Assembly (NCBI GenBank): GCA_949710005.1
Contig: OX453272.1
Span: 35,620,636-35,684,635, forward strand
Reading direction: 5' to 3'
Source of the DNA: Ricordea florida
Taxonomy: Eukaryota; Cnidaria; Anthozoa; Corallimorpharia; Ricordeidae
DNA length: 64,000 nucleotides
Of the stretch, positions 10,246-35,482 are shown piece after piece. The notes beneath the pieces are model-generated. The model was not told the DNA's origin, ran no database searches, and was given only the letters and a program-made list of their open reading frames with translations. Each line of letters begins with the position of its first letter. The first letter of the stretch is position 1. The position numbers and the translations under genes are program-made.

Positions 10246-10280
10246 TTTTGTTTCTGCCTATACATACAAGAAAAGTAAAA
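10246..10280. promoter_or_regulatory. A: divergent promoter gap before the capsid gene
   Basis: 35 bp separate the divergent starts of the coiled-coil gene and the major capsid gene and contain CTATACATACAAG. B conserves CTATACATACAAG in the same place (32,964-32,997). Confidence 0.45.
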
Positions 10281-11513: not shown

Positions 11514-11534
11514 TCGTCTCCTTATATAGCCTAG

Positions 11535-12181: not shown

Positions 12182-12183
12182 TC

Positions 12184-12822
12184 ATGGATGACACCGTGCT
12201 GGATGAAATTCTCCGCGAAGAAGGGATATGTCCCAGCGAGCCTCCCGTAGACGATGCTCAGGACGAACGGGAGGCGCTGGCTATTCTCGCGGCCGCGGGC
12301 AATACCAAGGAGTACTTGGGGAAGGAGCTGTCGCTGGGCGACGTCCACAAGCTCTCGAGGAAAGAGGTTGCTTCGCTCCATCTTCGTTACCAGGTGACCC
12401 TCGGAAAGCAGGTCGAGCGCAGTCTCTCTAGCGGCTTCTTAAAAGTCGCGTGCAAGGTGGTAAGCCATTTGTTGGGAGCAGTAGGTAAGCAGCTGGATTC
12501 CGAGCAGGCGCTGTTAGAAGACCTCCAGCAGGATGCCCTGATCAGGCGTGAGTTAAGCTATGGGGCGGGTTGGATCGCGGTCCGCGGAGGCCACTTGGTG
12601 GCGCTAATGGCTGCTCTGGCGCATGTAGGCTGCCACACAGAGTCTGCGCTCTGCGTCGATAGACTGTCCCACGCTGGAAGCTCGACGACCGCAGACCCAG
12701 ATGCTAGAAAACCTGTGGTTCCTCTTGCAAAGTCTTCGACGACCGCAGGCCCAGATGCTAGCAAACCTGTGGTTCCTCTTGCAGAGTCTGTCTGCGACGC
12801 CGGAGGCTCGACGAATCGCTAG
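12184..12822 (+). CDS. A: ATPase-adjacent conserved protein, 212 aa
   Basis: Starts two bases after the ATPase stop. Conserved core: EYLGKELSLGDVHKLS, LHLRYQVTLGKQVE, GAGWIAVRGGHLVALMAALA. The C-terminal 50 residues hold two copies of an 18-residue repeat (SSTTADPDARKPVVPLAK, SSTTAGPDASKPVVPLAE), whereas the B copy has one. Family common in cnidarian Polintons, function unknown to me; the order ATPase then this gene is also kept in element C. Ends with a CDAGGS segment whose DNA recurs in the integrase gene of A. Confidence 0.7.
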   Translation: MDDTVLDEILREEGICPSEPPVDDAQDEREALAILAAAGNTKEYLGKELSLGDVHKLSRKEVASLHLRYQVTLGKQVERSLSSGFLKVACKVVSHLLGAVGKQLDSEQALLEDLQQDALIRRELSYGAGWIAVRGGHLVALMAALAHVGCHTESALCVDRLSHAGSSTTADPDARKPVVPLAKSSTTAGPDASKPVVPLAESVCDAGGSTNR

Positions 12823-12883
12823 GGTTCCACTAGCAATTTTTTTGGTGTTTGTATAGTAATTACCAACATCTTGTCTGAAAGTG

Positions 12884-13264
12884 ATGGAAGAAGAAGATCG
12901 TATTACAGCGCCAGCCGCTCCCGTAGCTCCGAATAAGCAGAAGGATCCTAAGAAGGTCGCGGCTGGCCGAGCCCTCGCGGGTAGGAACAAAGAAGCTCGA
13001 CAAGCTCTGGCTCGAGAGCGGTCTCGCGAGAGCCACGACGACGAACCACACCGAGCTACGACAAGCTGGAGCTCTGTCAATTGGGGGCTCCTGATTGCCG
13101 CAGGGAGCCTCTTCGCCAGTCTGTATAGTCTGTATCTAGCGCATCTCAAGCAACCGCAGCAGCAGCCAAGTCTGCGAGTCTACGACGCACTTCGTGCCCG
13201 CCCGGAGGGCCAGCTTACTCACCCGCCACCCGAGCCTGCGCGGTCTCGCGAAATTATGGAATAG
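12884..13264 (+). CDS. A: small single-pass membrane protein, 126 aa
   Basis: Acidic start (MEEEDR), basic KQKDPKKVAAGRALAGRNKE helix, then a hydrophobic segment around residues 65-85 (WGLLIAAGSLFASLYSLYLA) and a proline/arginine-rich tail. Start chosen at the ATG rather than the GTG one codon before. A TATAG motif lies about 30 bases upstream. Homologues in B (108 aa) and C (61 aa) show the charged N-terminal part is the conserved one. Role unknown; likely a minor virion or membrane protein by location. Confidence 0.65.
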   Translation: MEEEDRITAPAAPVAPNKQKDPKKVAAGRALAGRNKEARQALARERSRESHDDEPHRATTSWSSVNWGLLIAAGSLFASLYSLYLAHLKQPQQQPSLRVYDALRARPEGQLTHPPPEPARSREIME

Positions 13265-13286
13265 ATTTTTGTATTGTATAGTCTCG

Positions 13287-13502
13287 ATGGACAACAAAGT
13301 CGTCTCCACTGTGGTCGAAGCGGCAACTCTGACAGGCATTGCTGCTGGTATTGGTTGGGTGGGGAAAAGGGTTCTCAAAACGCCTATGATCTCGGACCCT
13401 TCCTCGTCGATTGAAAACTACGCGAAGTGGGTTGCAGTTCTCTCAGGAGCGATAGCAGCTAGACAATACTTAGTCGATAAAAAGATAATCCCAACTGAGT
13501 AG
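13287..13502 (+). CDS. A: small protein with two hydrophobic segments, 71 aa
   Basis: Two hydrophobic segments (VEAATLTGIAAGIGW and WVAVLSGAIAARQYLV) around a short polar loop, ending KKIIPTE. A GTATAGTCTCG box immediately precedes the ATG. B encodes the same length (35,832-36,047). Two bases from its stop to the next ATG suggest co-transcription. Function not known. Confidence 0.65.
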   Translation: MDNKVVSTVVEAATLTGIAAGIGWVGKRVLKTPMISDPSSSIENYAKWVAVLSGAIAARQYLVDKKIIPTE

Positions 13503-13504
13503 AG

Positions 13505-13936
13505 ATGGTAAGCATAGCAGTTATGGTGGGTGGGGCTATCCTGAACGCTACGGCCTTTGTAGGTGGGTCGTATCTCGCTCGGGCGCTTTCTGGGAAAGGT
13601 CCCGATGCAATGGTGGCTGAGCGGAAGCGCCACGACAAAGCCTTGGAGAAGTACCAGGCTGACTGGGCTGCCTTTCAGAAACGCCGCGAGAAGCTGGCAG
13701 ATTGGGAAGTAGAGCAGGAACGCCTGCGCAATAGAGCTGACCAAGACACAGCCGCAACGAACCGCGCTCTCGACCTGTACGCTAAAACCCATCCTCGTCC
13801 CACAGCGGTTGATGACCACGACGCCCCGAAATGGAGCGATTATTACCGTCCTTCGAGTTCCCAGCGAACGGGTGAATTGGCCTATGTAGGGGGTGGGATG
13901 CTCGCCATTGGGTATGCTGCTAGCCGATGGTTGTGA
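13505..13936 (+). CDS. A: coiled-coil protein with terminal hydrophobic segments, 143 aa
   Basis: An N-terminal small-residue hydrophobic segment (VMVGGAILNATAFVGGSYLA) is followed by a charged coiled coil (about residues 40-95, RKRHDKALEKYQADWAAFQK), a conserved DYYRPSSSQ motif, and a C-terminal GELAYVGGGMLAIGYAASR segment. This arrangement and the YRPS motif are characteristic of a recurrent Polinton protein; its role is unassigned as far as I know. B copy 36,050-36,481 is about 92 percent identical by eye. Confidence 0.7.
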   Translation: MVSIAVMVGGAILNATAFVGGSYLARALSGKGPDAMVAERKRHDKALEKYQADWAAFQKRREKLADWEVEQERLRNRADQDTAATNRALDLYAKTHPRPTAVDDHDAPKWSDYYRPSSSQRTGELAYVGGGMLAIGYAASRWL

Positions 13937-13974
13937 GACCACAATAGCTTTTTTCGCGATGGAGCTATAGACCA

Positions 13975-15063
13975 ATGGAAGAGAAGCCTGTCTACGACGC
14001 CGGAGGCTCGGCGCTGTCTGCGACGGACTTGGTCCGCCTCCGGAGCAAGCTGTCTGGCATCTACTACAGCCCCCAGGGCTATTGGAAGGGGCACGCCGCG
14101 TCGAAGAAGTTGGCGGACGCAGCTGGCGTCTCTGAAGATACAGCCCTGGCTTGGCTAGAAAAACAGGCAATTTGGCAGATCTACCTCCCGCCTCCACAGC
14201 GCATACCAAGGCCGAGGTTCAATGTCTCAACACCAAACGAGGTTCATCAGGCCGATCTTCTATTTCTACCTCATGACCGCCCGGGACGTGGGCGGAAGCT
14301 TTACAAATATGCGCTCACTGTGGTCGATGTTGCCTCGCGCTACAAGGACGCTGAGCCGTTGGCTTCAAAGGAAGCGAGAGAAGTCGCGGGAGCGTTGGAG
14401 CGCATCTACAAGCGAAGTCCTTTGACCTGGCCCAAGCTACTCCAAGTCGATCCGGGAAAAGAGTTCATGGGTGCTGTCTTACCTCTACTAGCTCGCCACA
14501 ATACAGAAGTCCGGCGTGGCCGCGTGGATATCCACCGAGACCAAGCGATCGTTGAGAGATTCAACAGGACTCTAGCCGAGCGGTTGTTCGGTTACCAGTA
14601 CGCCCAGGAGATGCTTCTTCCCGAAGGAGAAAGATCGGTACAGTGGGTGGTTCGGTTGCCTGCGGTTGTCGAGGCTTTGAACAACGAACCGACGCGGTTG
14701 ATCGGAAAAAAACCGCAGGATGCCATCGAATCCAAATCGGTGGTACAAAAACCTTCCGTCGTTGTACCGGGGAGGGCGGTTGGTTTGGAGGAGGAGAGAC
14801 TTTCGTCTGACGCCAGCGTACGATATTTATACCAGCCTGGTGAACAGGAGGGCGGGCGAAGACGCGCAACGGACCCAATTTGGAGTCTCGAGGTTCTCGA
14901 GCAAGAACGCGCGATTGTTCGGCCTGGCGAGCCTGTGGTCTACTATCTCAGAGACGGGCCCAAACGAGGCTTTGTCCGCGAAGAGCTTCAGATAGTGCCT
15001 TGGAATACTGAATTACCCCCTGAAGGTGTACTCAAGGGGTTCGGTGTGAATCCCGTTGGGTAG
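13975..15063 (+). CDS. A: retroviral-type DDE integrase, 362 aa
   Basis: Catalytic core: first Asp in HQADLLFLP (near residue 94), second in LQVDPGKEF (near 160), Glu in AIVERFNRTLAE about 35 residues later, so a D,D(35)E triad is complete. C-terminal DPIWSLEV, PVVYYLRDGPKRGFVREELQ is the SH3/chromo-like end typical of Polinton integrases. It inserts the element, giving the 5-bp duplications seen here. Residues 5-25 (around VYDAGGSALSATDLVRL) are an in-frame extra segment missing from B, and share DNA with the end of the 12,184 gene. Ends convergent with the polymerase, overlapping by 51 bp. ACTATAGACCA-type box directly before the ATG. Confidence 0.9.
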   Translation: MEEKPVYDAGGSALSATDLVRLRSKLSGIYYSPQGYWKGHAASKKLADAAGVSEDTALAWLEKQAIWQIYLPPPQRIPRPRFNVSTPNEVHQADLLFLPHDRPGRGRKLYKYALTVVDVASRYKDAEPLASKEAREVAGALERIYKRSPLTWPKLLQVDPGKEFMGAVLPLLARHNTEVRRGRVDIHRDQAIVERFNRTLAERLFGYQYAQEMLLPEGERSVQWVVRLPAVVEALNNEPTRLIGKKPQDAIESKSVVQKPSVVVPGRAVGLEEERLSSDASVRYLYQPGEQEGGRRRATDPIWSLEVLEQERAIVRPGEPVVYYLRDGPKRGFVREELQIVPWNTELPPEGVLKGFGVNPVG

Positions 15064-18000
15064 AACTCGTCTCTTGTCGTAGTAAGCGGAAAGCCCGAGT
15101 TTCTCCTGGTGGTACGTTGTCATCTTTCCGTGGTCCATTCGGAATCCCCGGTTTTCTGCCAGGTCGAGTGCTCCATACAGGGCTGCTTTGTATCGGCCCC
15201 AGGTCAAATCGTTGTCTTTTTTCGACATCCCCTTCGCCGAGGTTTTACTTTTTCCTGTCCCATCGTCTACGTAGTACGCCTTGCTGCATAGAGCGATGGC
15301 CCGGGTTCCCTCGAACTCGAGTTTGAACAGGTTCGGCGTCCGGCCGCTCCATTTATCCCAAGCCAGCCATTTCTTTTTGCAGCCCTCGAACTCTTCGCGG
15401 AGCTCGGGGCGGACGACGTCGTCCAGGTTTTTCCCGGCGATTTCCATGTACAGGCTATCGGTATCCATCTGTAGGAGCTCGAAGGATCTTCGGTCTACGA
15501 AATGGTCCAGGAAGTCGTAGTAGAATTCGAGCATCCGTAGTTTGGCTAGCTGATAGACTGTGATTCCGATTTGGAACGGGCGGGTGATCTCGATCTTCTG
15601 CTTCCTCCTGTGGATCTCGTAGGCGTAACCTATTTCGTCGAGGTCCTCGAACCAGGAAGAGCGGAGAGCACGATCGACAACCGCTTCGTCATCTGTGTAG
15701 GAGACCAATGTCTGGCGCTCCAGCGCTTCGATGAATTTACCGTAGCAGCTATTCCCTAGTAGTTTAAACAGGTCAGCGAATAGTGCTTTGTCCTTGTTGG
15801 TATCCCCTTCTCGTCGAGCTTCTGTAACCTGGTCTACGAACCAGCCGAAGATCTTTTGCGGTTTGTAGTTGATCGTCCGGTACACCTCGGTGACAACTAA
15901 ACCGTGGGCGAGGTACCAGCGGAGCAGAGGGGCGTACAACAGAATCTTCTTGGCCCATAAGGCCCCGACAAGCTTCGGTTCTGTTGAGCGGGTTCGTCCC
16001 ATTCGCTCGAGATAGTCCAGCATCTCTTGGGGAACCGCTTCGATGGGGATCTTCTTGCTGTGGAAGAGCGGGGGCATTTCTTCGAACTTTGGCCAGAGGT
16101 GTTCGGGGACCTCGATGTCAACCTCGGCGAACCCGAACCACCTTCCTTCTCGTAGAGCCTCCACAAACCCATCGACATCGTCCGGACTACGGTAGTGGAT
16201 CACCGTTCCCTCCCCACAGGGCATAGGGGCTGCCATGGTAGAGAGGTAGAGCGCGTTCGCGTCGTAGCCGAGGATGCGTTGACATTGGTGGGCCTGGTCG
16301 TATTGGTGCGACCGGATCCGCGAGACCCCCACCTCGTGGTAGCGGGTAAATACAATCGAAGGCCCTCCGACAACCGCCGCTTTGAGCATGTCGTACGCTT
16401 CTTTGTTGGGGGCATACAGCTCGGGCGGGTTGGGGCTGCGAAGTGTGCCTCGCAAGACGAACCTCATCGACACTCCAGGTAGACTAACCGCATCTTTGAA
16501 GATGTCGATTCCATACGTGGTGTAGAAGTCTGGCATTTTGGCCAGGGCTTCGACGAAGGGCCCCACGTCGAGATTGTTGTAGTAGCGGAGCCAGTCCGCG
16601 AAGGTCTGCATCCCCTTCTCCCGGAATACCCGCTTGCAGTCTCGATATTCCGAAAGGGAAAGAAGATATTTGCCTTTCAGTTTCGAAAACCACTGTGGGT
16701 AGTCCGGTAGGCCAGGGAAGTCGAGCTTGTCGGGCGAGTCGAACCATTCGTACGGAAACCAAGACTTCGTGAGAGTGCAACCGTAGGCTTTGACCCAAGC
16801 ATCGTAGGTTTTGCCAGGACCGATGTAGTTCAAAACGTCCAGAAATTTGAAGCCCGGAGTTGTGATAAACATAACCTGGTTTTCCTTACACCCCACTTTG
16901 ATGGACTGGTCGGTCGTCTTGCAGATTACTGGGACGAAGTGGTTCCGGATCAAGTTCAAATCGTACTTCCCCGAATTGAATCCAAGCACAGGGACTTGGT
17001 CGCACCACTCTTCGATCGCTTCCCGATACTTTTTTGGTAAGAGCTCGATGGTGTCGGGCAGGAACCTCGCATTAACATGTTCGCGTATCCGAACGGCCCG
17101 TCGTTCTAGCGCTCGAACAAATTCTTCGACCAACAACTTAGACTCTCGTACGCATAGGTGTTTGGGAGTCGGATCCAGGGTGTCTGATATGGAGACGGAG
17201 ATAGGAACGTGGTCTCCCTCTATAGTCAAATCGGCGGTCGGCTTTTTCGCACTGGACTTGTCGAGGTAACTCTCGAAGTCGTACACGATCGCGTGGGGGT
17301 AGGTTGTTGTCTTTGGATCGGGGATGCGATCTTTTCTCCAAGGTTTTGGCTCCTCGTGCTGCCACCTAACCACAAGACGATACCCGGCGGCGCGGAGTTT
17401 GGCTTCACGCCCGAGTGTCTGTTGGTATACCATTTCGCGTGTGACAGGGCTTTCCTTTTTCTTGGAAAGATTCTGAAGTAGCTCCTGGCGTTGCTTCGGT
17501 GATGGGAAACAGATTTTACATCCGTGCCATAGGCAACCATTGAATTGGAAGACGGTCTTTGAGATGGGATCATAACCATCTACGGCGCAACCTTCTATCA
17601 TTCGCTCGCCTCCATGTCCACATAGCTGGTGATGGATATGGATGCCCCTAGTGCGGGCTTCATACTCGAGCCACTGTAGCGCTTGTATGCTATCCAGTTT
17701 TTGTGGGTAGAAAGCCTTCTCAAAGGTCGATTGTGGAGCTTCAACTTTCTCTCCTTTGCAGACAACTTTTGTCTCACCTTCGATGCAACGGTCTGCATGG
17801 CGATGGAGATGGCAGGACTGTGTAAGCCGCGCATTGCACTCCCCACACACGTATACATGCGCTAGTTTCTGTATGTCGCGAATGAGAAACGCGTGCCCCT
17901 CGTATACGCCGATCGTCATTGGTGGAATACCTACTTTTTCATAGTGTGCTGGTTGCCTCCGATGCAGCCAATCTCCAGACTCTGTCGGTTCGTATACCCG

Positions 18001-19011
18001 GATCCCGAGTCGGAAGTGCTGCTCTACTTTTCGCAGCCCGTCCAGAGAAAAGCCCTTCGGGGGCCCAACCCCTGGGCAATTCTCGTGCGATTGGTATATC
18101 TCTCTAGCGAGAGCTTGGGCTTGTAGGGTGCAACGATCCACACGCGCCCCTCTATGGACGGCGATACACCGAAAGAGACAGAGGTTATCTCCGTACGTGT
18201 CCAAGGAGTACAACCCCCGCTTTCTTCGGAGCCAGTCGGGTAGTGGTCCTGTACCCAACAGAGGCGCCTGCCGATCTACTACGACCTTGACTTCCACATA
18301 GATAAAGCGAATGAATACCCATTTGGTGCTAGGTCGCTCGATTTGGACCCTTGACAAGCGCTTCTCGTCTTCCGCCTGCACCCAGTCTCTAGCTTCCGGC
18401 TCGAGCCGCTGGATCCAGGGACTGCCTTTTGCTGTTTTTCTCCACAACATGATTTTTCCCGTTTCGATGTGTCTTAGTCGATAGGTGTAACTGTATCGCA
18501 GATAGCAGCTGGTGACGACCTTCTCGTGGAGCTTATCCATAATCCGATCCACCAGAGGCCCGTCCACGCCTCAGAAGAAAGACCACTTCCAGAAGCGCCG
18601 CCCGTGTTGCTCACCCTCTCTTTCTCCATCCAACTCTTCGAGTATTCGTGACCCTTCTGCGATAATAGATCGCGCTAAGGGGGCTCGCCGGTTTTATATT
18701 TTTCTACGAGCTTCTGCTCTCATAGTTGGAGTAGTCCTCTTTTGGACACCCTCCGCGAGAAGAGCGGCGTCAACCTCTCTCGCAAGTTGACGGAGTTCAC
18801 GGGCGCGTTGCCACTTCTTGTGTGGGTTCTCTATCCCTCCTCCGGTTATAGCAGGGTATATCCCCGTCTGTAGCGCTCGCCGGAGTCTTTTCCTCCATTC
18901 CACGGCGCGTGCCTCTGCGATAGCTCGCAAAAGGTCAGCTTTTCGTAACCTCGAGCTCGCGGTCAAACCATAGCTTCTTGCTAAAGAGCGTAACTCTTTG
19001 ACGGTGGACAT
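15013..19011 (-). pseudogene. A: protein-primed type B DNA polymerase, two premature stops
   Basis: Same architecture as the intact B copy (37,495-41,472). Two in-frame nonsense codons lie in the N-terminal part: a TAA at 18,694-18,696 (after EARRKI) and a TGA at 18,571-18,573 (CGA in B). Downstream, 1,184 codons are open and hold OTU-like CLFRCIA, CxxC/HxxxH finger, exonuclease YDFESYLDK, GFNSGKYDLNLI, polymerase motifs DANALY, KLLGNSCYGK, DTDSLY and KGMSKK. If translation restarted after the stops only the SAP part would be lost. Start at 19,011 (MSTVKELRSLA) follows the TIR by about 75 bp. Confidence 0.85.
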
Positions 19012-19085
19012 AGTGTGGAAATACCTTTGATACACCACTCTCTAAATGGAAATACTTTTGGTATCGCCACTCTCTAAATGTGTGT

Positions 19086-19420
19086 CGCCAACGTTTTTTC
19101 CGAAGATTTATAGTATGCATATTTGTCTAAATTGAAATTGCTCATTAATTTTCGGAAAACGCTCGGAAAATCTTCGGATCATCTTCGGGTCATCTTCGGG
19201 TCATCTTCGCGCATGTTTGCCTTGGGAACCTTACCGCCTTTCAATACAGCTTCTAGAGTGGTTTATACGATTTGACCCTTTCCCCACTGAAAAACGACTT
19301 CTAGCGTGTGGTATTTAACTGTCACCTCTTATCCTATTTTTGTTTTACCTTGGGAGCCTTTCCACGCTGAAAAACGGCTTCTAGAGGTGGTGGTATTTAA
19401 ATGATCCCAACTATACTATT
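19086..19420. repeat. Element A right terminal inverted repeat
   Basis: Reverse-complement match of 4,964-5,298. Differences include CTCCCC/CTTTCC-type single changes and the terminal ATT in place of ACT. Followed by target duplication ATTGC (19,421-19,425). Confidence 0.9.
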
Positions 19421-19425
19421 ATTGC

Positions 19426-19524
19426 GGAATATTTAGGAAGATAGTTTCTTCTGGCTTCGCTGATGATGGATTCATTGTAACCCGATGAATAGTGGATGTC
19501 GCTTTTAAACCAAACGGAACCTTC
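19426..19524 (-). pseudogene. C: major capsid protein, N-terminal start region
   Basis: Minus-strand frame contains HRVTMNPSSAKPEETIFLNIP, equivalent to HRLTFHPSSAKPKELLYVDIP in element A (shown in short: NPSSAKPEET, IFLNIP). It stops at the element A boundary and, discounting one ATTGC copy, the frame continues at 4,958. This is direct proof of where A inserted. Confidence 0.8.
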
Positions 19525-19920
19525 AATCAATTCATCAATCAATCAATACTTTATTTATACACGTAACGCCTAGGAGCTATATAAGCTCGTTAATAATACG
19601 TACGTGTGTGAAATTACATTCACAAAGGCCATACCCCAACACCGGGAACTACGTCCCCTACTCTTTGCGAACAGCGTGTGGGTTCTTTAACGTCCCACGA
19701 AGTTATTTTAACCAAGGGCTGTGAGACGAGACCTACGGTTTATCGTCCTTATCCGAGAAGACTAGAAAGTCTAACCATTTGCAGATGTCATTACAAAGGC
19801 AGCATATTCTCCTCAAATAATTTAAAGACCCTGAGTGATGGTCCGGCCGAGGTTCGAACCCACGACCTCCCGCACGATAGTCCAGTGCTCAACCAACTGA
19901 GCTAACTGGTCGGCGGTTAA
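19525..19920 (-). mobile_element. tRNA-derived SINE
   Basis: On the minus strand near 19,918 to 19,840 the sequence has an A-box (TTAGCTCAGTTGGTTGAGC) and B-box (GGTTCGAACCT) spaced as in a tRNA, then an unrelated body and a TTGATTGATTGA-type tail near 19,530. Typical tRNA-headed SINE of about 390 bp. It lies between the capsid and integrase remnants of C. Confidence 0.75.
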
Positions 19921-20002
19921 ACCTTGAACGATAGATAGGTTTGGATCTTATTTATCGCTTATTGAGATAGACATTTATGATTTATTGGATTTAAATCTTT
20001 AA

Positions 20003-20890
20003 ATGGAATTATCCAAGATCTATTATAGTACTGATGGTTATTGGAAGCGTTATTCCGCCAATGAAAAGCTTGCAAGTAAAGTAAATGTTAGTAAATTGGT
20101 CAGAAAAGCAAGCGATTTGGAAAATCTATTTATCCCCTCCAAAATACATACCGAGGCCGAGATGGACCGTGAAATAAACCTAATGAGGTACATCAGGCGG
20201 ATCTGTTATTTTTGCCCTTCGATAGATTTCGAGGTAAGACTTATAAGTGTGCATTAGTCGTCGTCGATGTTGCAAGAAGATACAAGGATATGCTGAAGCG
20301 CTTACATCGAAAGAGTCTAGCGAGCTGGCTCGTGCTTTTAAAAGACTACAGAAATATTGATGAAGCAGCATAATGTCATTATACAGAGAAGCGAAGCAAA
20401 TAATCACCGTTCTCAAGCGCTTGTGGTCATCAGTATTACCAGGAATTTTTGATTGAGGACAGATCTAGAATTTGGGTTAAAAGGCTCCCTGGTATTATGA
20501 AGGTTTTAAATTCGACTCCAACACGTTTGACTGGTAGACAGCCGATTATGGCTTTAATTTAAAATTGGAGAAGTTAGAGATTATGGGTGGAAGATATAAA
20601 CGAGCCGTAGGTATAGATGAACCCCGGTTACCTATGGCTGTTTACGTCAGATATTTATTGGCTAACGGCGAGCTGGAATCTGGTCGGAGGAGAGCCACTG
20701 ATCCCTATTGGTCGTTGGAAATTTATGAACTTAATCGAATTATTGTTAGCAAAAATCAACCTGTTTTGTATTACTTGAAAATGGACCTAGAAGATCTTTT
20801 ACCAGGGAGGAATTATTGGTGGTTCTTTACGATACCGCATTACCTCCTGAGCAAGTGCTTAATAATTAGATTTCTTAAGGGTGTTACACT
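20003..20890 (+). pseudogene. C: DDE integrase, degraded
   Basis: Opens with MELSKIYYSTDGYWKRYSA, matching the A/B integrase start (SGIYYSPQGYWKG). Then, across frameshifts, come a VVVDVARRYKD-like core, KQHNVIIQRSEA, LPGIM, NSTPTRLTGRQP and the C-terminal RRRATDPYWSLEIYELNR, QPVLYYL. A central piece including part of the catalytic core has been deleted or scrambled near 20,350-20,420. Same orientation relative to the polymerase (convergent) as in A and B. Confidence 0.8.
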
Positions 20891-21495
20891 TTAAACAACA
20901 AAGCACGCAATTTGATTTTGTATGCCCGATTTTGTTGTTTAATCCCTCCAGAGATACTAGATCAGAATCGAATTTAACATATTGTAATTTAATTTTACAG
21001 TCCGAATAAAAACAGTGTGTATATTTTTCTATTAGATCACGTAAAAATGGTTTATCTACATGATTTTCCGGATCATATCCATTATATTTTTTTTGTCTTT
21101 AGCTATGCTGTTATCATGCATTCGGTTGACTGTTACTTCGATTTCGTCAGAGCAGGATTTGCATTTCTTTTTTTGTCTTTTCATGTATACATACCTGGGA
21201 TCCATAACATTCGATGCATTGCTTGCCTATTTTTTTGTGTTTACATATCTGAGATCCTCCGCACTTGCCACACTCTTCTTTTAGTCGTTCATGTACATGC
21301 ACATATTCCTACTTCATTACAGTCACGACATCTACTTTTTTGTTTACCATGTGGACATCTATTCTTCTTTCTGTATTTTCTAGCATGTTCTCGACACTTC
21401 GAACAAGATTTCATTTCTCGCCCTTCTTTGATGAAAGAACTTGGACATCTATAGGTCTTACATCGTTTACAATTCACATTACTTGGTTCACTCAT
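20890..21495 (-). pseudogene. C: zinc-repeat protein with CxH/CxxC units and HNH-like tail
   Basis: Starts MSEPSNVNCKRCK, then SFIKEGREMKSCSKCREHARKY (in short: CSKCREHA), then repeated units of the form CPHGKQKSRCRDCNEVG and CKHKKIGKQCIECYGSQVC, where CxH and CxxC pairs alternate. Further down, in a broken frame near 20,900-20,990, a VSLEGLNNKIGHTKSNCVLC motif resembles HNH-type nuclease cores. Such CxH/CxxC repeats occur in giant-virus and virophage proteins. At least two frameshifts. Function inferred only as nucleic-acid binding. Confidence 0.5.
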
Positions 21496-21509
21496 ATACT
21501 AATACGATT

Positions 21510-22076
21510 GTCTTTCAATTTTACAGTTCGTTGAAATATTTTCTAAAAATTCCTCTGATAAATTCACATGCATCTCGTACTTATTGGTATGTTATTGATA
21601 ATGTTATATTTATCTTCCCAGAGAGGAAGACTATTATTTTAATCGCTTTTCATATATAGTTTGGTAAACAATTATTACTCCACAGTATTTATCCTTATCA
21701 AAATAACAGTTAACCACTTCGGGTTGAGTGTTCATTAAGTTGGCTAATTTATCCCGATTTATAGGGAAACTACATTTAGTCGCCGAATTGATTAGACAAA
21801 TACATGCATTACTGGGTGTATTATCGTTTAATTTACGTTTTAGCATACAGTGTACTAGTAGCGTCAATGCCATCCTCTAAAGACTTGCATCCCACTAAGA
21901 CTAAAGTTCCATTCTTAAACAACTTACAATTAATTTGCCTTTCTCCTAGATTAACTATTATGCATGGTTCTTTGATTTTTAAACTTCCCACTTTTATATG
22001 GATTGATTCCAATAATCTGGTCATTAAATTTCATATCTAAATCAACATTTGTGTTACTGTGGGATTTCAGAGTCAT
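21510..22076 (-). pseudogene. C: TBP-like transcription factor, degraded
   Basis: The ATG at 22,076 overlaps the polymerase stop. The first half has INCKLFKNGTLVLVGCKSLE, the signature of the C-terminal strand pair of a TBP lobe. The second half has FPINRDKLANLM, a CYFDKDKYCGVIIVY segment equivalent to the YxPxxxPGVxxxY of TBP, then KIIVFLSGKINIT and a CEFIRGIFRKYF helix: a full second lobe. Frameshifts near 21,960, 21,850 and 21,590 break it. It resembles the divergent TBP-like proteins of giant viruses more than canonical TBP. It would bind promoter DNA and recruit TFIIB, for which C also has a gene. Confidence 0.6.
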
Positions 22077-22286
22077 CGTTTATCAACCGTAATTGGCTCA
22101 TTAATGGAGTTAAAATGTCCAATGGCATATGTGTCGGTTGAGTCTTTTCTGATAATTCTTTTATCATCAAACGGTGATAATGCAACTTTGTTAATCGTTT
22201 CTGTGTAGATATCATGTAATCTGCTATTTATTACATTCATTTTCAGGTATTGTTTTTCCTGTTTAGATAGACACTCTTTGTAATCC
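22077..22286 (-). pseudogene. C: DNA polymerase, C-terminal end
   Basis: Reads DYKECLSKQEKQY, then MNVINSRLHDIYTETINKVA and LSPFDDKRI, the conserved C-terminal end of adenovirus-like Polinton polymerases, ending at a TGA that overlaps the TBP-like start. Joined originally to 24,373-27,037 but separated by the repeat block at 22,287-24,372, with roughly 100 codons missing. Confidence 0.7.
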
Positions 22287-24372
22287 TACGGAAGCTTTAA
22301 AGGGACATCTATAAAATTCTTGAGTTCGAGTTGTTGAGTACGAGTTCGAGTTGTTAAGTACGAGTTGTTGAGTACGAGTTCGAGTTGTTAAGTAGGAGTT
22401 GTTGAGTACGAGTTCGAGTTGTTAAGTAGGAGTTGTTAAATACGAGTTGTTAAATACGAGTTTGAGTTCTTAAGTACGAGTTTGAGTTGTTAAGTACGAG
22501 TTCGAGTTGCTAAGTACGAGTAGTTAAGTACGAGTTGTTAAGTACGAGTTGTTAAGTACGAGTTGCTAAGTACGAGTTGCTAAGTACGAGTTGCTAAATA
22601 CGAGTTGTTAAGTACGAGTTGTTAAGTACGAGTTGTTAAGTACGAGTTGCTAAGTACGAGTTGTTAAGTACGAGTTGTTAAATACGAGTTGTTAAGTACG
22701 AGTTGTTAAGTACGAGTTGTTAAATACGAGTTCGAGTCGCTAAGTACGAGTTGTTAAGCACGAGTTGTTACGTACGAGTTGCAGGCAAAATTATATTCCT
22801 ATAGGATGAATAACAGTTTTGAAAATATGAAATGCAAAAGCATCCAGAAATCTGTTATTAAACGAGAAATATTTCATGAGGATTATACGGAAGCTTTTAA
22901 GGGACATCTATAAAATTCTTGAGTTCGAGTTGTTGAAGACGAGTTCGAGTTGTTAAGTTCGAGTTGTTAAGTACGAGTTGTTAAGTACGAGTTCGAGTTG
23001 TTAAGTACGGGTTGTTAAGTACGAGCTCGAGTGGTTAAGTAGGAGTTGTTAAATACGAGTTCGAGTTGCTAAGTACGAGTTGTTAAATATGAGTTGTTGA
23101 GTACGAGTTCGAGTTATTAAGTACGAGTTGTTAAGTGCGAGTTGTTGAAGACGAGTTCGAGTTGTTAAGTACAAGTTGTTAAATATGAGTTCGAGTTGCT
23201 AAGTACGAGTTGTTGAGTACGAGTTCGAGTTGTTAAGTACGAGTTGTTAAATACGAGTTGTTAAATACGAGTTCAAGTTGTTAAGTACGAGTTGTTAAGT
23301 ACGAGTTCGAGTTGTTAAGTACGAGTTGAGTGGTTAAGTAGGAGTTGTTAAATACGAGTTCGAGTTGCTAAGTACGAGTTGTTAAATACGAGTTGTTGAG
23401 TACGAGTTCGAGTTGTTAAGTACGAGTTGTTAAGTGCGAGTTGTTGAAGAGGAGTTCGAGTGGTTAAGTACTTGTTGTTAAATATGAGTTCGAGTTGTTG
23501 AGTACGAGTTCGAGTTGTTAAGTACGAGTTGTTAAATACGAGTTGTTAAATACGAGTTCAAGTTGTTAAGTACGAGTTGTGAAATACGAGTTGTTGAGTA
23601 CGAGTTCGAGTTGAATCAGCGGTATCAAAGCATGTGAGGAGGGAGCTATGGTTCTGCTTTATTCAGGCAATTTCTCGCTAGATTCGGTTGTGCCGGTTCA
23701 GATTCAACAAAAACTGTTTCTTTCAAGCAAACACCAGCTTGACTTGACGAATCCTTGCAACTTTCTCCAGGACATATTGTCTTGTTATTGTTTATACTTA
23801 AAATGAAATATTTTCTATTCGGCAAACCGCAAGAGAATACAAACAACCATATGTTGTATAAAGGAATAACATGCACCAGTAATTGAGAAAGCTTCGCCAT
23901 TCATGGTCAATCATGCCTAATTATTCCTTTTAGCCCAAGGATCTTTACTACAATGCAAGTTAAATTAATGTTGGAAATTAAACAACTCGATTTCGGTCCA
24001 GTTGCGTGGTAAACGAGATTCATGACCCGTCAGCAATTAAAATGTGAAAGATACGTGTTGCATGTTCCGTATTTCCTTGTAATAATGGGGCAAAACACCC
24101 TTGACAACCTCAATGTAATGAAAAAGTAGGAATAATACACCAATAGTTGCAGCAACTGGGCCTCCTCCGCAATAAATCTTTTTCAGTCCAAATCATTGTC
24201 ACTCGCAGAACTCAACAGATTTTGCTCCCGCGATACTTTCGTTTTAATACCGATGATTCAACTCGAACTCGTACTTAACAACTCGAACTCGTACTCAGCA
24301 ACTCCTACTTAACAACTCGAACTTAGCAACTCGAACTCGTATATAACACTCGTACTTAACAACTCGTACTAA
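22287..24372. repeat. 2-kb insertion made of GAGTTGTTAAGTAC tandem repeats
   Basis: A 14-bp unit GAGTTGTTAAGTAC, with frequent extra GAGTTC hexamers and AAATAC/GAGTAC variants, fills about 22,325-22,780 and 22,920-23,610. Both arrays are preceded by the same leader (GGAAGCTTT..AAGGGACATC, TATAAAATTCTTGAGTTCG). A short array in the opposite orientation lies at 24,247-24,370. Between 23,615 and 24,245 is non-repeat sequence without recognisable coding. The block splits C's polymerase gene and looks like a transposable element with tandem-repeat ends. Confidence 0.75.
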
Positions 24373-27037
24373 AAATCTTTTGTTTTAATTTCATATAATA
24401 GAGAATCGGTGTCCGTTAAAAGCAGTTTCGAATTATTCCCTTATTTGGGTTTTATATATTTATAATGGAATTTATACATTAAACGCAATTCTAATATACA
24501 CATGCCAAGGTAAATTGGCTTTTCGAATATGAACTCATCTTGCCCCAAATGAATCGAAGCAAGATTTTCATCAAATATCGTATAATTTTGGAAAGTAGGT
24601 ATAATTATTTATTTTTTAGCACATTTTAAATCTTTAACCAGCTTGATCTCTTTCCTGTTTCTGATATTTTCCATTGTTTTACCGAATATGGAATTATTCG
24701 TTAATTTAAAAAAGTCTTTTTCGAAGTCGTTAGAGGCTTTCTTTCTTAGATTAGTATTAAGGTCAACATATTTTTTCATCCATTCCGATTCTTCAAAAGT
24801 AACACGGCGATGAATTTTGGTTAATATTAAACCATGTTTCAAATATAGTTTTAGATCAGTCTCGATGCAGAACATATTCAGTCTTACTTTTAAAAGTTGG
24901 AACTAGTTTTTCTACTTTATCCACTTTTAGATGTTCAAGGGCTAGCGGGTAGTCATTATGTAAGTCGTGTAATTCACGCGGGTAGGCTAAATCAACTTCT
25001 AATATACCAGGAACATTTTCCCAATTCGTTAATTCCTCAGATGTCATGAACCTAAAACCGTGCGCTGGTAATTTTTAGCTCATGGCCCATCCGTATAAAT
25101 TATTGGCGTCTAGATACATTAATAAATTGACTTGGTTTTGTTGGGTCATAGTCTTTCACGTATTTAATGTTTGCTTTTCAGTACCTATTACTAATCATTC
25201 AAACACCACCCTTGTACCTTTTTCAACCAGATCTAAAATTTTTATATCCCTTAGCAGTTCTAATTTGACATCTGTTAATTTTAAGCAGGCATCCCACGCT
25301 AGACTAGGTGCTGTATAATACCAGACCGGGTCCAATTTATAATTTTCCAGGCATATATCTCGAACGTTCTCAAACACATCCGATAATAATAAAAATTCTG
25401 ATTTCAAATATAGATCGTGATAATCCTGTGTATATTTCATTTCAAATACGTTCCATATTTTGCAGGCGTGCTGTTAGTCTTCCTCAGAAATATTTTCACT
25501 GTATAATTGTGAGTAGAATTCTTGTTTAGTTGGTAATTCTGGGGTATTTTAATTTATTATAACTATCAAACCAATCATATGGGAATACCCTCTTTCTATG
25601 TAATAATTCTAATTGAGTTCCTTTATAATATTGCGATAAATTAATGAACTTGTCTTTAGGCAAATTGTTGTCTTAATTATCTAAGCTTGTTGCCATAAAT
25701 CTAAAACTACCGATAAATCGTAATTTAATATATACAGGAACTTTTTTGGCAATTTTATCGATTCTAGTATCTACTTTTATGTTTTTAGAAAATGAAATGT
25801 ATCTTTTTTCCGTATTTGCAATACAATCTATTTTTCCGTCATTTTCTTCAGTTACATTTAATTTTTAATGAACAAATGCGAGACATATCCGGTTAAATTA
25901 TGTAATATTACTGGAATGAATTGTGGTATTTGGTAATTTACGTTGCACTCATTGTGAGCAGCTCCTCGATATTTCATTGTTAAGTGGCAATGATCTAAGG
26001 CTTTATCACCATTTAATGGTTTATCACAAATTTAGTATAAATACTCAGGTGATTATACAAAATCGCGTGCTCTGATTGGTTCGCTATCTCGGATTATTAG
26101 CCCATAATCACTTAGACGAACAAAATGGCTGCCAGTCGTTCGCGCGCTTTTGATAAAATACTTTTTTTCGTGTTGTACAACGCTTTTTCTTTTCTTTTTT
26201 GAAAAAATCAACTGTGTATTTATACTAAAACAATTATTCGCCGAAGGCGAATAATTGTTAAATGGCAATGGGTGGAATTGTTTAATTCGATTCGATCTGA
26301 AACTGAAAGTATAACACCCATGGGAAATTTAATTTTTTGGTATTTCTCATGAGTGGTTTTTTCTAAACTTAATACAAATTTATGTGCTACGTCATCATCT
26401 TCGGATTTTGCAGTATTACGAATTTTACAAATCGCAATATCGCTGGGCTGTACAAAATAACACCAACCAGATGGAGTATGTTTTTGGTATTTTTGGGTAA
26501 AACGTTTTTCCTCACTTGGTAGACATGTAGAAATTTTTTCGGTGAAGCACTCAAAATCTGCATATATTACAAAAGGTACTCTCATCTTCTTATTCTAATT
26601 TTTGAATTGGATGGCTTTGGGGGATCCATCTGGATTTATTGGCATTGTGGTATGAACTTTTTCTCTTTGGCTACGATACTTGTTATGCTTAAATAGTGAT
26701 GGTTGACAATTAAATGAATTTAAACACCGAAAACAAAAAGCCTAGTATATCCATGATTATTCATTTTATGAAGACAAGAGTCTACTAATATTTTTAATCC
26801 AACAATAATGATTAGTTTTTTCATTGGTTATTAACAGCAAATTTATATATTGATCGCTTTCTAGAAGTTTGGTATTATTTCTTAATGTACTAAATTTCTT
26901 CGTTTGATCATTGTATCCAATAACATTAATCGAATATGGTTTATGTTTTTCAAATTCATCCATGTCTTTATAGGTTACTGGAAAATTAATATTATCCCAG
27001 TTGAATTGTTTGAAATTTTCAATCATTTTTGATGTTA
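24373..27037 (-). pseudogene. C: protein-primed type B DNA polymerase, main part
   Basis: Many frame pieces in order: INFPVTYKDMDEFEKHKPYS and HYCWIKNISRLL (N-terminal OTU-like region), VIYADFECFTEK (exonuclease I), HDLYLKSEFLLLSDVFENVR, LDPVWYYTAPSLAWDACLK, then [62 protein letters not shown] (motif B) and DTDSLLYEIKTKDF (motif C). This belongs to the adenovirus/Polinton family but to a different branch from the A and B polymerases. Many stops and frameshifts. Element B is inserted in its N-terminal region and the frame continues at 41,787. Confidence 0.85.
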
Positions 27038-27042
27038 GCCTT

Positions 27043-27345
27043 AGTAGTATATAAGGAATGAATCAAATACGGATTTCTATATAAGCCGTTTTTCAGTGTG
27101 GAAAGGCTCCCAAGTATAAAAGGAAGGGGTTCCAATTTAGAAATGAACCGTTTTTGCCTATTTTCCGATTGAAAGCTCCAATTTAGAAATGAAGCGTTTT
27201 TTTCCTATTTCCGAAGATGAACCGAAGATGACCCGAAGATGAACCGAAGATACCCCGAAGATTTTCCGAGCGGTTTCCGAGAGTTAATGAGCTATTTCAA
27301 TTTAGACAAATATGCATACTAGAAATCTTCGGAAAAACGTTGGCG
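27043..27345. repeat. Element B left terminal inverted repeat
   Basis: Matches 41,547-41,781 at both ends of the repeat; the left copy has about 70 extra bases in the middle containing a duplicated TCCAATTTAGAAATGAA module. Has a GAAGATGAACC/GAAGATGACCC tandem array at about 27,223-27,265, as in A. The inner 100 bp is shared with the A TIRs, the outer part only partly. Confidence 0.85.
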
Positions 27346-27400
27346 CAACGCGGCGTGCGTGTGCAAATCTTCAACTTCGGTAGTTGCATAAGGTTCTACT

Positions 27401-27652
27401 ATGACTTCGGCAGAGTTGACGGCGGGAGAGATGTACGGGGTTTCTGATGAGGAAACAGAGGAGTTAACTCCTTATGTTCTTGAGGACGAGGAGGATGAGG
27501 TGTTCGAGGCGTCCTGGTGGGAAGTGGCGGAGCTTCATGGGGAAGAAGAGTTTGAGGAGGACGACCTCATTCGACTGCAACTTAACGAGTTCGCAGCAGA
27601 AATAGATGCTGCTTTGGAAGCGGGAGTGTTTGAGACTGCGCCTAGCGCTTAA
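27401..27652 (+). CDS. B: very acidic small protein, 83 aa, absent from A
   Basis: ATG at 27,401, 55 bp inside the TIR. Composition dominated by Glu/Asp (DEETEELTPYVLEDEEDE, EEEFEEDDL) with two Trp (SWWEVAEL) and a C-terminal helix. No family recognised; an acidic mimic or transcription-activating protein is possible but unsupported. No counterpart between TIR and SAP gene in A. Start context and open frame support it, but short acidic frames can arise by chance. Confidence 0.5.
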   Translation: MTSAELTAGEMYGVSDEETEELTPYVLEDEEDEVFEASWWEVAELHGEEEFEEDDLIRLQLNEFAAEIDAALEAGVFETAPSA

Positions 27653-27967
27653 TTAGCGCGTTGTAGACTGTAACTTTTTTCGGTATATATATATAGAACA
27701 CGGAGGAAAAATTGAGAGCGTTTATTTTAGATGGTATGAAGGGGAAGAAATTTAAATACCAGTACTGCTAGAAGCTGTTTTTCAGTGCGGAAAGGGTAAA
27801 ATCGTATAAACCATAAATACCAGTGTGAAAAGGGTCAAACCGTATAAACCTCTCTAGAAGCTGTATTGCAAGGCAAACAAATACGAATTGGTGTGGGAGT
27901 ACAATAAACGCAACGCAAAAAGTATTTCCATTTAAAGAATAGAAGAATATCGCTATTATATATAGAC
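27653..27967. other. B: non-coding stretch holding internal TIR-like modules
   Basis: Contains a TATATATATAGAAC box near 27,685, then at about 27,750-27,870 copies of the TIR modules (CTAGAAGCTGTTTTTCAG, GGAAAGGGTAAAATCG, CTCTAGAAGCTGTATTG) that in A lie only inside the terminal repeat. Ends with TATTATATATAGAC directly before the SAP gene ATG, a likely promoter. Confidence 0.6.
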
Positions 27968-28573
27968 ATGCTCACCGTCAAAGAGTTACGCGCTTTGGCA
28001 ACAAGATACCAGATTCCCGGCCGGTCTACGATGGTCAAAGCTCAACTGCGTCGTGCTTTATTGGCACACCCTCGAGCGCGCGTGGTGATAGAACGTGCAG
28101 ATAGGCGGGCGAATTTCAATCTATCGTCCCGCGATGTCGCCCTCGTGTGGTTGAGTGGAGATGCGCGGTTGCGAGAACAGCTTTGTGACGGCACCTTCTA
28201 TGCCGTCGATGATCGACTCCGGAGAGAGTTTCAGACCCGTGGGGTGCCAAGAAAATTAGCGGCACTTCTTGAAAATGTCGGCCGAAACAGATATTTTACT
28301 TCCGTCATCGCGCCTATAAAACGCTTGTATTATCAAGAGTTTCGATTCGAGGAGGCTCGTTTGATTTACCGCGAGTGCCAGCTCGCTCACAATCGCTTTC
28401 TGGAAAATAGGGACGGAAAATTTCTCCCGCGTGGTGAAACACGAGAATACTTCTATGAATTATTGGATGACGCGTTTGCCATGTTTGAAAGAAAGGTGAA
28501 AAACATCGAAGAGTTTGGTGCGCCCGGATTCGGAGCAACTATGAATTGGTTGAGCTTGTTGTGGGTCGACTAA
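27968..28573 (+). CDS. B: SAP-domain protein, 201 aa
   Basis: Homologue of 5,312-5,902 with the SAP motif TVKELRALATRYQIPGRS at residues 3-20 and identical start context after TATATATAGAC. The 120-150 region (NVGRNRYFTSVIAPIKRLYY) differs from A by substitutions and five extra residues, the rest being about 80-85 percent identical by eye. DNA-binding role by domain. Confidence 0.75.
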   Translation: MLTVKELRALATRYQIPGRSTMVKAQLRRALLAHPRARVVIERADRRANFNLSSRDVALVWLSGDARLREQLCDGTFYAVDDRLRREFQTRGVPRKLAALLENVGRNRYFTSVIAPIKRLYYQEFRFEEARLIYRECQLAHNRFLENRDGKFLPRGETREYFYELLDDAFAMFERKVKNIEEFGAPGFGATMNWLSLLWVD

Positions 28574-28635
28574 CCCTACCATCCCCACTTTTTTCGGGCA
28601 GGCAATTAGAGAGTAGCAACCAATAGACCGCAAGA

Positions 28636-29193
28636 ATGGATGTAATGGTCGCTGACAGCTTGAAAAAAGAAAACTATTCCTCTACTTACCTCTCGCAGTT
28701 AAAACTCTTAGCAACCTCTTTCTTAGAAGACCCTCCAATTTCTCCCCATCCCAACCCAGAAAGCATCGAGGGGTATCTTTTAGCCAGCCCTCGACTTTGC
28801 CACCGTATGGTTTCGGGTGAGTTTGACCATCTTACATGGAACTTTCCAACCGACCGGCGAAATGAGTGGTATATACCTAGACCAAGATCAAAAACTAGAA
28901 GGTCCGCGTTGCAAAAATTGTTGATGAAAGAGTTCGGGCTTGATTTATTCGAAAGAAAATCGATAGTAAACCTTGTGAATCGTATTGAGGACAACTTGAG
29001 TTTTGTCTCAGGCTACCGCCGGCTTCCCAAGCTGATATGGCTGTTGAAAGTGATCTTCGAACTCCGAGAGGACCACGAAAGAGCCGCCAGGTGCTACATC
29101 TCAAACATTCGACCGACGACTCTTCGAAAATACGAGGCTCTATGGTCCAAGCTGAAGTTATCGTTCAACGTGGAAATAACAACCTCCACTTAA
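28636..29193 (+). CDS. B: hypothetical protein, 185 aa
   Basis: Homologue of 5,965-6,489. Reads eleven residues past the A stop and overlaps the convergent 29,190-29,786 gene by four bases. Starts MDVMVADSLKKENYSS. No recognisable domain. Confidence 0.65.
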   Translation: MDVMVADSLKKENYSSTYLSQLKLLATSFLEDPPISPHPNPESIEGYLLASPRLCHRMVSGEFDHLTWNFPTDRRNEWYIPRPRSKTRRSALQKLLMKEFGLDLFERKSIVNLVNRIEDNLSFVSGYRRLPKLIWLLKVIFELREDHERAARCYISNIRPTTLRKYEALWSKLKLSFNVEITTST

Positions 29194-29786
29194 GCGAGTT
29201 TTTCTCGCATCTCTGCGACCAGTTCGCTGCGAATCTCGGTCCGCAGCTTTGTCAGATCGAGGTCTTCGTTTTTTGTCACAGCTTTTTGTTTAATCTCGCG
29301 CTTGAGTGTTTCATATTTTTCAACCTCGGAGAGAATGAGTTGAAATTCCGTAGCGCTGATTTGGTTATCCTGTAAGGCTTTCGAGACCAGGTCGTTGATG
29401 GTACTCAACTTCGTCTCACCAATCGTGACGGTTCGCTCATGCTTGGAGATCTTTACGGCGATTCGTTTACTGACCCGGACCATCGAGGCTGACACGATTC
29501 CGAAGATGCCACCAATAGCACCCAGTGGAACCCCAACGACAATCCCAAGGCCGGTCAAAGAGGCGGCTAGGCCCGAAGCCGAAAGTATAACGCTCAGACT
29601 TCCAGCGGTTAAAGCTACCCCGTTTAGAATTGTCCGAGAGCGGGTATATTTTTTCCGAACCCCCTCGTAATGGGCGATACTGTTTTTTAGGGCGGTCTGA
29701 ATGTCACAAATCTTTTGAAGCCGAAACGAATGCCCCTCATCGTTGGGGGCGGTGGGAACCTTTGGGTACAAACAATCAGATTCCAT
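29190..29786 (-). CDS. B: glycine-zipper membrane protein, 198 aa
   Basis: Identical in protein sequence to 6,519-7,115 of A, with only a few silent base changes visible, in contrast to the surrounding genes. Hydrophobic block at about residues 50-105. TATATAGGGGT box immediately upstream of the ATG. Confidence 0.7.
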   Translation of the reverse strand: MESDCLYPKVPTAPNDEGHSFRLQKICDIQTALKNSIAHYEGVRKKYTRSRTILNGVALTAGSLSVILSASGLAASLTGLGIVVGVPLGAIGGIFGIVSASMVRVSKRIAVKISKHERTVTIGETKLSTINDLVSKALQDNQISATEFQLILSEVEKYETLKREIKQKAVTKNEDLDLTKLRTEIRSELVAEMREKLA

Positions 29787-29790
29787 ACCC

Positions 29791-30471
29791 CTATATACAG
29801 AGTTCTAACAAAACTTCAACCTTGGTCGACGGCACCGTCCAAACTCGAAAGAGATTTCTTTTTGTGGGGTCGACGGGGAGATAAAACGGTCGCAAATGCC
29901 ACACCGAAGGCCCTTGAAGCTTCAAAGGTTCGACCTTCGCCAGTAGATAGGAGGGTTTGCCCCCTTCATACGACTTGTTTGGGTCCACCAAATCGCAGTA
30001 GATTGAAACAGAGGGCGGCCCCCATTGTACAGGAACGTGAATCAGAACGCGCGGGACTTTGGATATCCCCAACAAGTCGGCTAGCTTGCTGTCTAGGATC
30101 ACCTGTACTTTCGAGAAGAAATACACTCCAGTAGCGGTTATCCGAAGTTCACAAGTGCCCGCGGCGACATCCTTTCCATGCCCATAGACAATTGCCTGTT
30201 GTAGACAGTGGAGGTTGTACTCCCCCTTCGGAATTGAGACCAGAATGTTCCCTTTCGCTTTCCTGATCGTGGCCAAATCGGCGTATCCTTCGCGAATGAG
30301 GTTCAATTTGTCCCATGAGTTGAGAGCGAAGAAATATGTATCCATCGTTTTAAGTACTGTGAGCGTTATTTCAGGGATCTTCACGGTTCGAGCTGCGACA
30401 CTCGAGAGCTCACCACCGACCGGAGGGTGAAGTTCATTCACACCCTCTCTTGCTGCTATGCTGAGGGACAT
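29791..30471 (-). CDS. B: minor capsid (penton-like) protein, 226 aa
   Basis: Homologue of 7,119-7,799 with about ten substitutions; same length, same KGEYNLHCLQQAIVYGHGKD and SIYCDLVDPNKSY segments. Penton identity is by pattern and position. Confidence 0.6.
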   Translation of the reverse strand: MSLSIAAREGVNELHPPVGGELSSVAARTVKIPEITLTVLKTMDTYFFALNSWDKLNLIREGYADLATIRKAKGNILVSIPKGEYNLHCLQQAIVYGHGKDVAAGTCELRITATGVYFFSKVQVILDSKLADLLGISKVPRVLIHVPVQWGPPSVSIYCDLVDPNKSYEGGKPSYLLAKVEPLKLQGPSVWHLRPFYLPVDPTKRNLFRVWTVPSTKVEVLLELCI

Positions 30472-30497
30472 TTTATTTACCTGCGTATATATACACC
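30472..30497. promoter_or_regulatory. B: divergent promoter gap with TATATATA
   Basis: 26 bp between divergent ATGs, containing GCGTATATATACACC, conserved with A 7,800-7,825. Confidence 0.5.
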
Positions 30498-32963: not shown

Positions 32964-32997
32964 TTTTGTTTCTGTCTATACATACAAGACAAATAAA

Positions 32998-34227: not shown

Positions 34228-34245
34228 TCACCGCCCCTATATACT

Positions 34246-35426: not shown

Positions 35427-35482
35427 GGTCCCGCTGGCAATTTTTTGGTGTTTGTATAGTATACGAGCCCTGTCTGAAAGTG

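Follow-up and report, generated by a model that had tools for sequence, protein, structure and literature searches.

A decayed AT-rich Polinton in the corallimorph Ricordea florida with TBP-like and TFIIB-like pseudogenes

A 64,000-nucleotide stretch of the Ricordea florida genome (GCA_949710005.1, contig OX453272.1, positions 35,620,636 to 35,684,635; hereafter the window) contains the broken remains of an AT-rich Polinton in which two pseudogenes, one related by sequence to TBP and the other to TFIIB, reside within the same element. We tentatively favor the view, with a chance close to even, that this Polinton once carried its own TBP-like and TFIIB-like factors, which would have programmed an RNA polymerase that it did not encode, likeliest the RNA polymerase II of the host. 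The kinship of the two proteins to TBP and TFIIB and their common residence are read from the sequence, and promoter use and polymerase recruitment would follow from them. Function is deduced here from family membership alone because the window holds a broken copy and the only other copy found, P0001, is chimeric. The features are collected in Table 1.

Table 1. Features of the AT-rich Polinton and of the elements nested in it (positions in the window)
Feature	Positions	Strand	Remarks
Small ORF common to GC-rich Polintons	212..640	-	downstream of the ATPase
Packaging ATPase of AT-rich Polinton	767..1352	-	
TFIIB-like pseudogene	1337..2148	-	zinc ribbon, B-linker and first cyclin repeat; a second repeat only by eye
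TFIIB-like pieces	1786-2148, 1654-1782, 1485-1721, 1337-1597	-	
Rest of capsid (MCP) gene of AT-rich Polinton	2203..4963	-	matched 4962-4597, 3817-3641, 2376-2203
GIY-YIG-like retroelement fragment inserted in MCP gene	2455-3388	+	weak, E 0.1
GC-rich Polinton 1, nested in MCP gene	4964..19420		terminal inverted repeats 99.7% identical; flanks AATTGC / TATTGC, one mismatch
Start of MCP gene	19421..19958	-	matched 19422-19505; frame open to 19958 across 402-base insert 19527-19928
Retroviral-type integrase of AT-rich Polinton, broken	20003..20866	+	tblastn with GC-rich integrase, E 1.1e-47
Cysteine-rich repeat gene with HNH-like end	20862..21498	-	between TBP-like gene and integrase; no convincing Pfam match
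TBP-like pseudogene, two lobes	21524..22076	-	Pfam, PDB and shuffle comparisons; P0001 match
TBP-like open pieces	21954-22079, 21836-22030, 21637-21876, 21584-21649, 21524-21580	-	three frames
ATGA, TBP-like start codon and stop codon of preceding frame	22073..22076	-	
DNA polymerase B gene region of AT-rich Polinton, in pieces	22076..27062	-	polymerase demonstrated only at 24453-24902; rest by eye or position
GC-rich Polinton 2, nested further along AT-rich element	27043..41781		five-base GCCTT common to flanks
Piece past nested element 2, read as N-terminal part of AT-rich element's polymerase	41855..42185	-	

The TBP-like pseudogene and its second copy

The three peptides that an initial annotation had taken as traces of two TBP lobes all occur in two minus-strand frames, namely FKNGTLVLVGCKS at 21881-21919, FDKDKYCGVIIVY at 21664-21702 and VFLSGKINIT at 21602-21631; the plus strand of 21510-22076 is broken by stops. 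Lobe 1, an unmodified 65-residue piece (21836-22030, minus strand) and one of ten pieces submitted to Pfam, matched PF00352 with E 2.2e-4 and 21.5 bits, slightly below the curated cut-off of 22.9 bits. Against archaeal TBP it scored z 8.6, none of 1000 shuffles equalling its score, and 27 of its 29 PDB matches listed at E<=10 were named TBP, TFIID or TBP-containing chains (best E 0.0039), the other two being an ECU04_1440 protein and a C2 domain-containing protein-like entry. The remaining pieces are weak when taken singly. Pieces 21584-21649 and 21637-21876 gave z 4.3 and 2.2 against archaeal TBP, the latter finding no match in a PDB search, and the N-terminal piece 21954-22079 gave z 0.7 against the same protein; the C-terminal piece 21524-21580 (z 0.2) is not above chance.

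Joining the pieces with X and omitting the N-terminal one yielded two matched stretches of PF00352 at E 1.3e-8 and 35 bits, and only in this joined form do the two tandem lobes exceed the 22.9-bit cut-off. Lobe 2 alone, joined in the same way, reached E 0.0012 (19.1 bits), and adding the N-terminal piece to an X-joined lobe 1 brought no gain (E 0.0017). The proposed two-lobed architecture is therefore supported once the pieces are joined, with lobe 1 above chance by itself and the pieces of lobe 2 weak singly. When the joined gene and P0001 were combined into a profile, TBPs came out on top in the PDB (E 0.0046) and made up six of the nine matches listed at E<=1. At the positions that we take to be the four DNA-wedging aromatic residues of TBP, the alignment of the TBP-like gene has F, F, Y and F. 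By its sequence, the gene is real but broken, and related to the TBP family.

P0001, a protein of 176 residues encoded on a 9.9-kb contig, was the only match of the TBP-like query at E<=10 (27 candidates from 5.8 billion proteins), with E 3.7e-28 and 54% identity over 65% of the query, and again the sole match in a second protein search with the TBP alignment (777 candidates). On its own, it reaches PF00352 only with E 0.0048, and the alignment of its residues 46-176 with archaeal TBP spans both lobes (z 9.8). Its N-terminal part is not TBP and matches the element piece 25676-25864 (E 1.8e-14), and its remaining residues match three TBP-like pieces (E 4.2e-22, 3.9e-14 and 5.3e-6); tblastn gave both relationships as well. 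Presumably, this N-terminus and piece 25676-25864, for which Pfam returned no match, represent the polymerase exonuclease. P0001 thus appears to be a chimera, in which two parts of the element lying 3.6 kb apart in the window have been fused as if by deletion. Since it joins the TBP-like domain to another part of the element, the TBP-like gene accompanies the element in a second copy. The AlphaFold model of P0001 cannot test the TBP fold because its mean pLDDT is 38.7; in this low-confidence model, lobe 1 comprises strands 67-73, 76-82 and 87-91 and a helix 96-110, with block means of 44 to 62.

Intact relatives, which the initial annotation had proposed to find, did not emerge from protein, viral-contig or genome-contig searches, the chimeric P0001 being all that was found. 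Genome contigs searched with P0001 yielded no relative, nor did viral contigs searched with TBP lobe 1, the polymerase piece, P0001, the GC-rich MCP, the TFIIB alignment, P0005 and 22076-22285. The viral-contig result carries little weight because even the TFIIB queries matched none there.

The start of the TBP-like gene had been described as overlapping the stop of the polymerase gene. The overlap itself exists, as an ATGA shared with the stop of the preceding frame. That frame, 22076-22285, showed no polymerase match in Pfam and scored z 0.7 against the polymerase of the neighboring GC-rich Polinton; with its polymerase identity failing this direct test, the observation is only partly confirmed. 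By eye, 22076-22285 would be the C-terminus of the polymerase. The polymerase itself is demonstrated at 24453-24902, on the same strand and 2.2 kb upstream of the TBP-like start, with repeat arrays between them. PF03175 matched there above its cut-off (E 7.8e-8, 32.1 bits, at 24609-24875), and 24612-24902, compared with the GC-rich polymerase, gave z 17.3 as the sole above-chance piece of the ten read as polymerase. The other nine scored from -1.7 to 1.6 in the same comparison (seven other pieces within 22076-27062, -0.4 to 1.6), and five putative polymerase pieces had no polymerase match in Pfam. Past nested element 2, the reading of 41855-42185, which we take to be polymerase, continues over the empty site, interrupted by one stop, when one of the two junction positions tried is used; its scores against the GC-rich polymerase were z 0.6 and -1.7.

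Two further observations concern the presumed polymerase region. Piece 25861-26031 has a weak match to PF02945 (endonuclease VII; E 0.0027, below cut-off), and an approximately 14-base unit is repeated in arrays whose orientation at 22287-23613 is opposite to that at 24259-24373.

The TFIIB-like pseudogene

None of the four TFIIB-like pieces had a TFIIB-family match in Pfam when submitted singly. Joined with X, they matched PF00382 over the first cyclin repeat at E 6.5e-4 and 20.1 bits, below the cut-off of 23.6. PF08271 found no match in the pieces, whether single or joined, and PDB searches with two of them returned no TFIIB. A protein database search gave four matches at E<=10 out of 142 candidates (P0002-P0005, E 0.014 to 0.3), of which all four contain PF00382 and three PF08271. 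Judging by their linker motifs, we assume these proteins to be of giant-virus type. The profile of P0002-P0005 picked 1786-2148 at E 6.1e-10 and 1654-1782 at 0.037 from 2502 six-frame segments, and nothing else at E<=1.

The C-x2-C and C-x2-C pairs and the linker of the TFIIB-like gene align with those of P0003-P0005 (zinc ribbon and B-linker), and the motifs LLPQSxLST and MPxKERSL are common to the gene and P0003. Piece 1786-2148 scored z 11.0-13.2 against P0002-P0005 versus 3.1 with yeast TFIIB and 5.2 with human TFIIB, and piece 1654-1782 scored 3.2-7.8 versus 1.8 and 5.0, respectively. The pieces of the second repeat, at z -0.5 to 2.6, are not above chance piecewise, and 1337-1597 scores highest with yeast TFIIB (z 2.6). 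From these comparisons, only the N-terminal part of the TFIIB-like protein appears to be nearer to P0002-P0005 than to yeast or human TFIIB.

One interrupted element

The AT-rich stretch 19420-27042 is flanked by two GC-rich Polintons, which are 87-92% alike in the self-comparison and possess terminal inverted repeats. Residues 21-48 of the GC-rich MCP match 19505-19422 and residues 48-170 match 4962-4597, on either side of nested Polinton 1, and the MCP reading over the empty site of this Polinton stays in a single frame (E 1e-27). GC-rich Polinton 1 is younger than the AT-rich element containing it. On the other side of the capsid start, a 402-base insert bounded by a nine-base duplication with one mismatch, in which ARAGORN found no tRNA gene, separates MCP and integrase. 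Discounting the insert, the distance from the integrase start at 20003 to the recognizable capsid at 19505 is 95 bases, about half of which is open in the capsid frame, so that the termini of two separate elements would hardly fit in between. The start codon of the capsid is not fixed because the nearest ATG, at 19974, is out of the capsid frame. The derivation of the TBP-like and TFIIB-like genes from two neighboring elements is disfavored by the continuity of the MCP and by this spacing. Together with the nested-insertion geometry, the same evidence supports the proposal that both genes belong to one element.

Read in the minus direction, the gene order is polymerase, TBP, the cysteine-rich/HNH-like gene, integrase (on the opposite strand), MCP, TFIIB and ATPase, and the genes after the ATPase extend past the left boundary of the window. 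We take the cysteine-rich gene to be EsV-1-7-like. Integrase, DNA polymerase B, MCP and ATPase are thus found together in the AT-rich element, the polymerase being demonstrated for only one of its pieces. On the right side, no terminal inverted repeat with a convincing likeness to the GC-rich repeats was found, and the left end lies beyond the window.

Five of the 14 GC-rich proteins (integrase, MCP, ATPase, the small ORF and polymerase) have a relative in the AT-rich parts, the likeness of the polymerase being distant (24%, E 1.5e-8). The polymerases, at 37495-41472 in the GC-rich and 24453-24854 in the AT-rich element, are barely alike, although integrase, MCP and ATPase are recognizable relatives; for this reason, the two lineages may have exchanged polymerase modules.

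Origin and use of the factor pair

The AT-rich element shares integrase, DNA polymerase B, capsid and packaging ATPase with the Polintons, Mavericks and adintoviruses of animals, and two relatives nested in it have terminal inverted repeats and short duplications of the target site. Unlike these systems, the AT-rich element has TBP-like and TFIIB-like genes. Transcription of small DNA virus-like transposons is, to our knowledge, little studied. Mavirus and other virophages, which are related to Polintons, are transcribed by machinery other than their own; we know of none that encodes TBP or TFIIB, nor of a Polinton that encodes RNA polymerase subunits. The terms TFIIB, TATA and TBP are absent from the main text of PMC10120064 and PMC12721341, and the terms TFIIB and TATA from that of PMC12945077. 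Within the literature covered, which includes coral polintoviruses incompletely, we found no description of TBP or TFIIB genes in a Polinton, adintovirus or virophage, coral or other cnidarian ones included. Provisionally, the combination of TBP and TFIIB in a Polinton would be new.

Both factors do occur in one genome among the giant viruses (Nucleocytoviricota), as in the AT-rich element. They are described together in megavirus chilensis (PMC11464507) and in the Mimiviridae (PMC3620924), and giant viruses also encode RNA polymerase subunits (PMC11464507). Mirusviruses resemble the AT-rich element in having a virus-encoded TBP but are large herpesvirus-related viruses. According to PMC10132985, whose main text does not contain the term TFIIB, a TBP gene cluster is present in 59% of the mirusvirus genomes and in 0% of those of the Nucleocytoviricota. 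Sporadic TBPs in integrated elements of an alga have been ascribed to putative mirusvirus elements (PMC10675990).

The mechanism that we tentatively favor runs as follows. The TBP-like protein would have attached to the AT-rich promoters of the element and bent them, and the TFIIB-like protein, by docking on the bound TBP-like protein, would have brought in a multi-subunit RNA polymerase of the eukaryotic type. This polymerase, not encoded by the element, would most likely have been host RNA polymerase II acting in the nucleus, so that expression of the element's genes could dispense with the factors by which the host recognizes promoters. RNA polymerase II is the first choice because it is nearest at hand in an animal nucleus. 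No RNA polymerase subunit was found among the pieces of the AT-rich element submitted to Pfam, the element being incomplete in the window, and the lack of an RNA polymerase of its own is plausible for a Polinton. A profile search found no match to TBP or TFIIB at E<=1 in the two GC-rich Polintons, which means that relatives manage without them. If the mechanism is true, the element, having both core initiation factors and no RNA polymerase, would offer an example from nature of mobile DNA that replaces the component of the transcription apparatus by which promoters are recognized, and it would tie Polintons to giant-virus transcription. The broader version, in which an animal Polinton lineage carries a portable, giant-virus-derived TBP and TFIIB module that programs an unencoded RNA polymerase independently of host TBP/TFIID, is possible, although we would sooner doubt it than assert it.

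Because the TFIIB-like protein is, in its N-terminal part, nearest to presumed giant-virus proteins, the polymerase of a large virus is possible as the partner, and this leaning would favor a viral polymerase at least as much as RNA polymerase II. The Polinton may accordingly have lived like a virophage, being expressed when a large DNA virus was present, with the pair serving the RNA polymerase of the co-infecting virus and at least the TFIIB gene taken from it. We regard this, the main rival, as unlikely, yet worth serious consideration. It draws on the scores of 1786-2148 (z 11.0-13.2 against P0002-P0005, versus 3.1/5.2 for yeast/human), on the motifs common with P0003 and on the presence of TBP and TFIIB in giant viruses (PMC11464507 and PMC3620924). 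However, the other TFIIB pieces show no such preference, 1654-1782 reaching z 5.0 with human TFIIB and 1337-1597 being best with yeast at 2.6, and a virophage can manage without factors of its own, as does one reported in PMC11464507 to encode no transcription factors. The giant-virus label of P0002-P0005, which carry no database names, is moreover our assumption.

A repressive role is improbable. As decoys, the factors would occupy host or viral promoters, or the polymerase, without initiation and so damp competing expression. The TBP-like protein is indeed far from cellular TBP (best PDB profile match E 0.0046), and family membership alone is no proof of productive initiation, but two partner factors in one element, including the polymerase-contacting zinc ribbon and B-linker part of TFIIB, argue for productive use.

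Slightly less credible still are chance passengers, that is, fragments of another virus or of host genes that ended up in a Polinton already in decay. Many other insertions do interrupt the element, and the frame overlapping the TBP-like start failed the polymerase test (z 0.7). Yet the TBP-like gene overlaps the preceding frame by ATGA, the TFIIB-like gene is packed between MCP and ATPase on their strand, and P0001 again pairs the TBP-like domain with a piece of the AT-rich element. Least probable of all is that the TBP-like gene had another function, for example as a nucleic-acid-binding protein of TBP-related fold unrelated to initiation, as its low similarity to any solved TBP and the poor P0001 model (pLDDT 38.7) would permit, but the presence of two lobes in order, and of a TFIIB-like gene that accompanies them in one element, speaks against it.

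Several minor observations concern other parts of the window. Its retroelements have a cnidarian, probably anthozoan, appearance. An ORF of the GC-rich Polintons (28636-29193, also 5965-6489) looked like a TFIIB cyclin domain to the eye and was rejected, with no Pfam match and an hhalign probability of 0.1; the model of 28636-29193 has a pLDDT of 38.7. The hexamer TATATA occurs five times in each GC-rich Polinton, versus about 0.6 expected and a maximum of three in 100 shuffles, the two counts not being independent because the elements are related. An ATG opening at least 148 codons follows it at a distance of 2-16 bases at three of the five sites in Polinton 1 and at four of five (two overlapping) in Polinton 2, a spacing much shorter than is usual for a TATA box of RNA polymerase II. 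We do not claim these hexamers as targets of the factors described here, TBP and TFIIB matches being absent from the GC-rich Polintons. Finally, a 51-base tandem array at 58511-58973 forms an open reading frame throughout.
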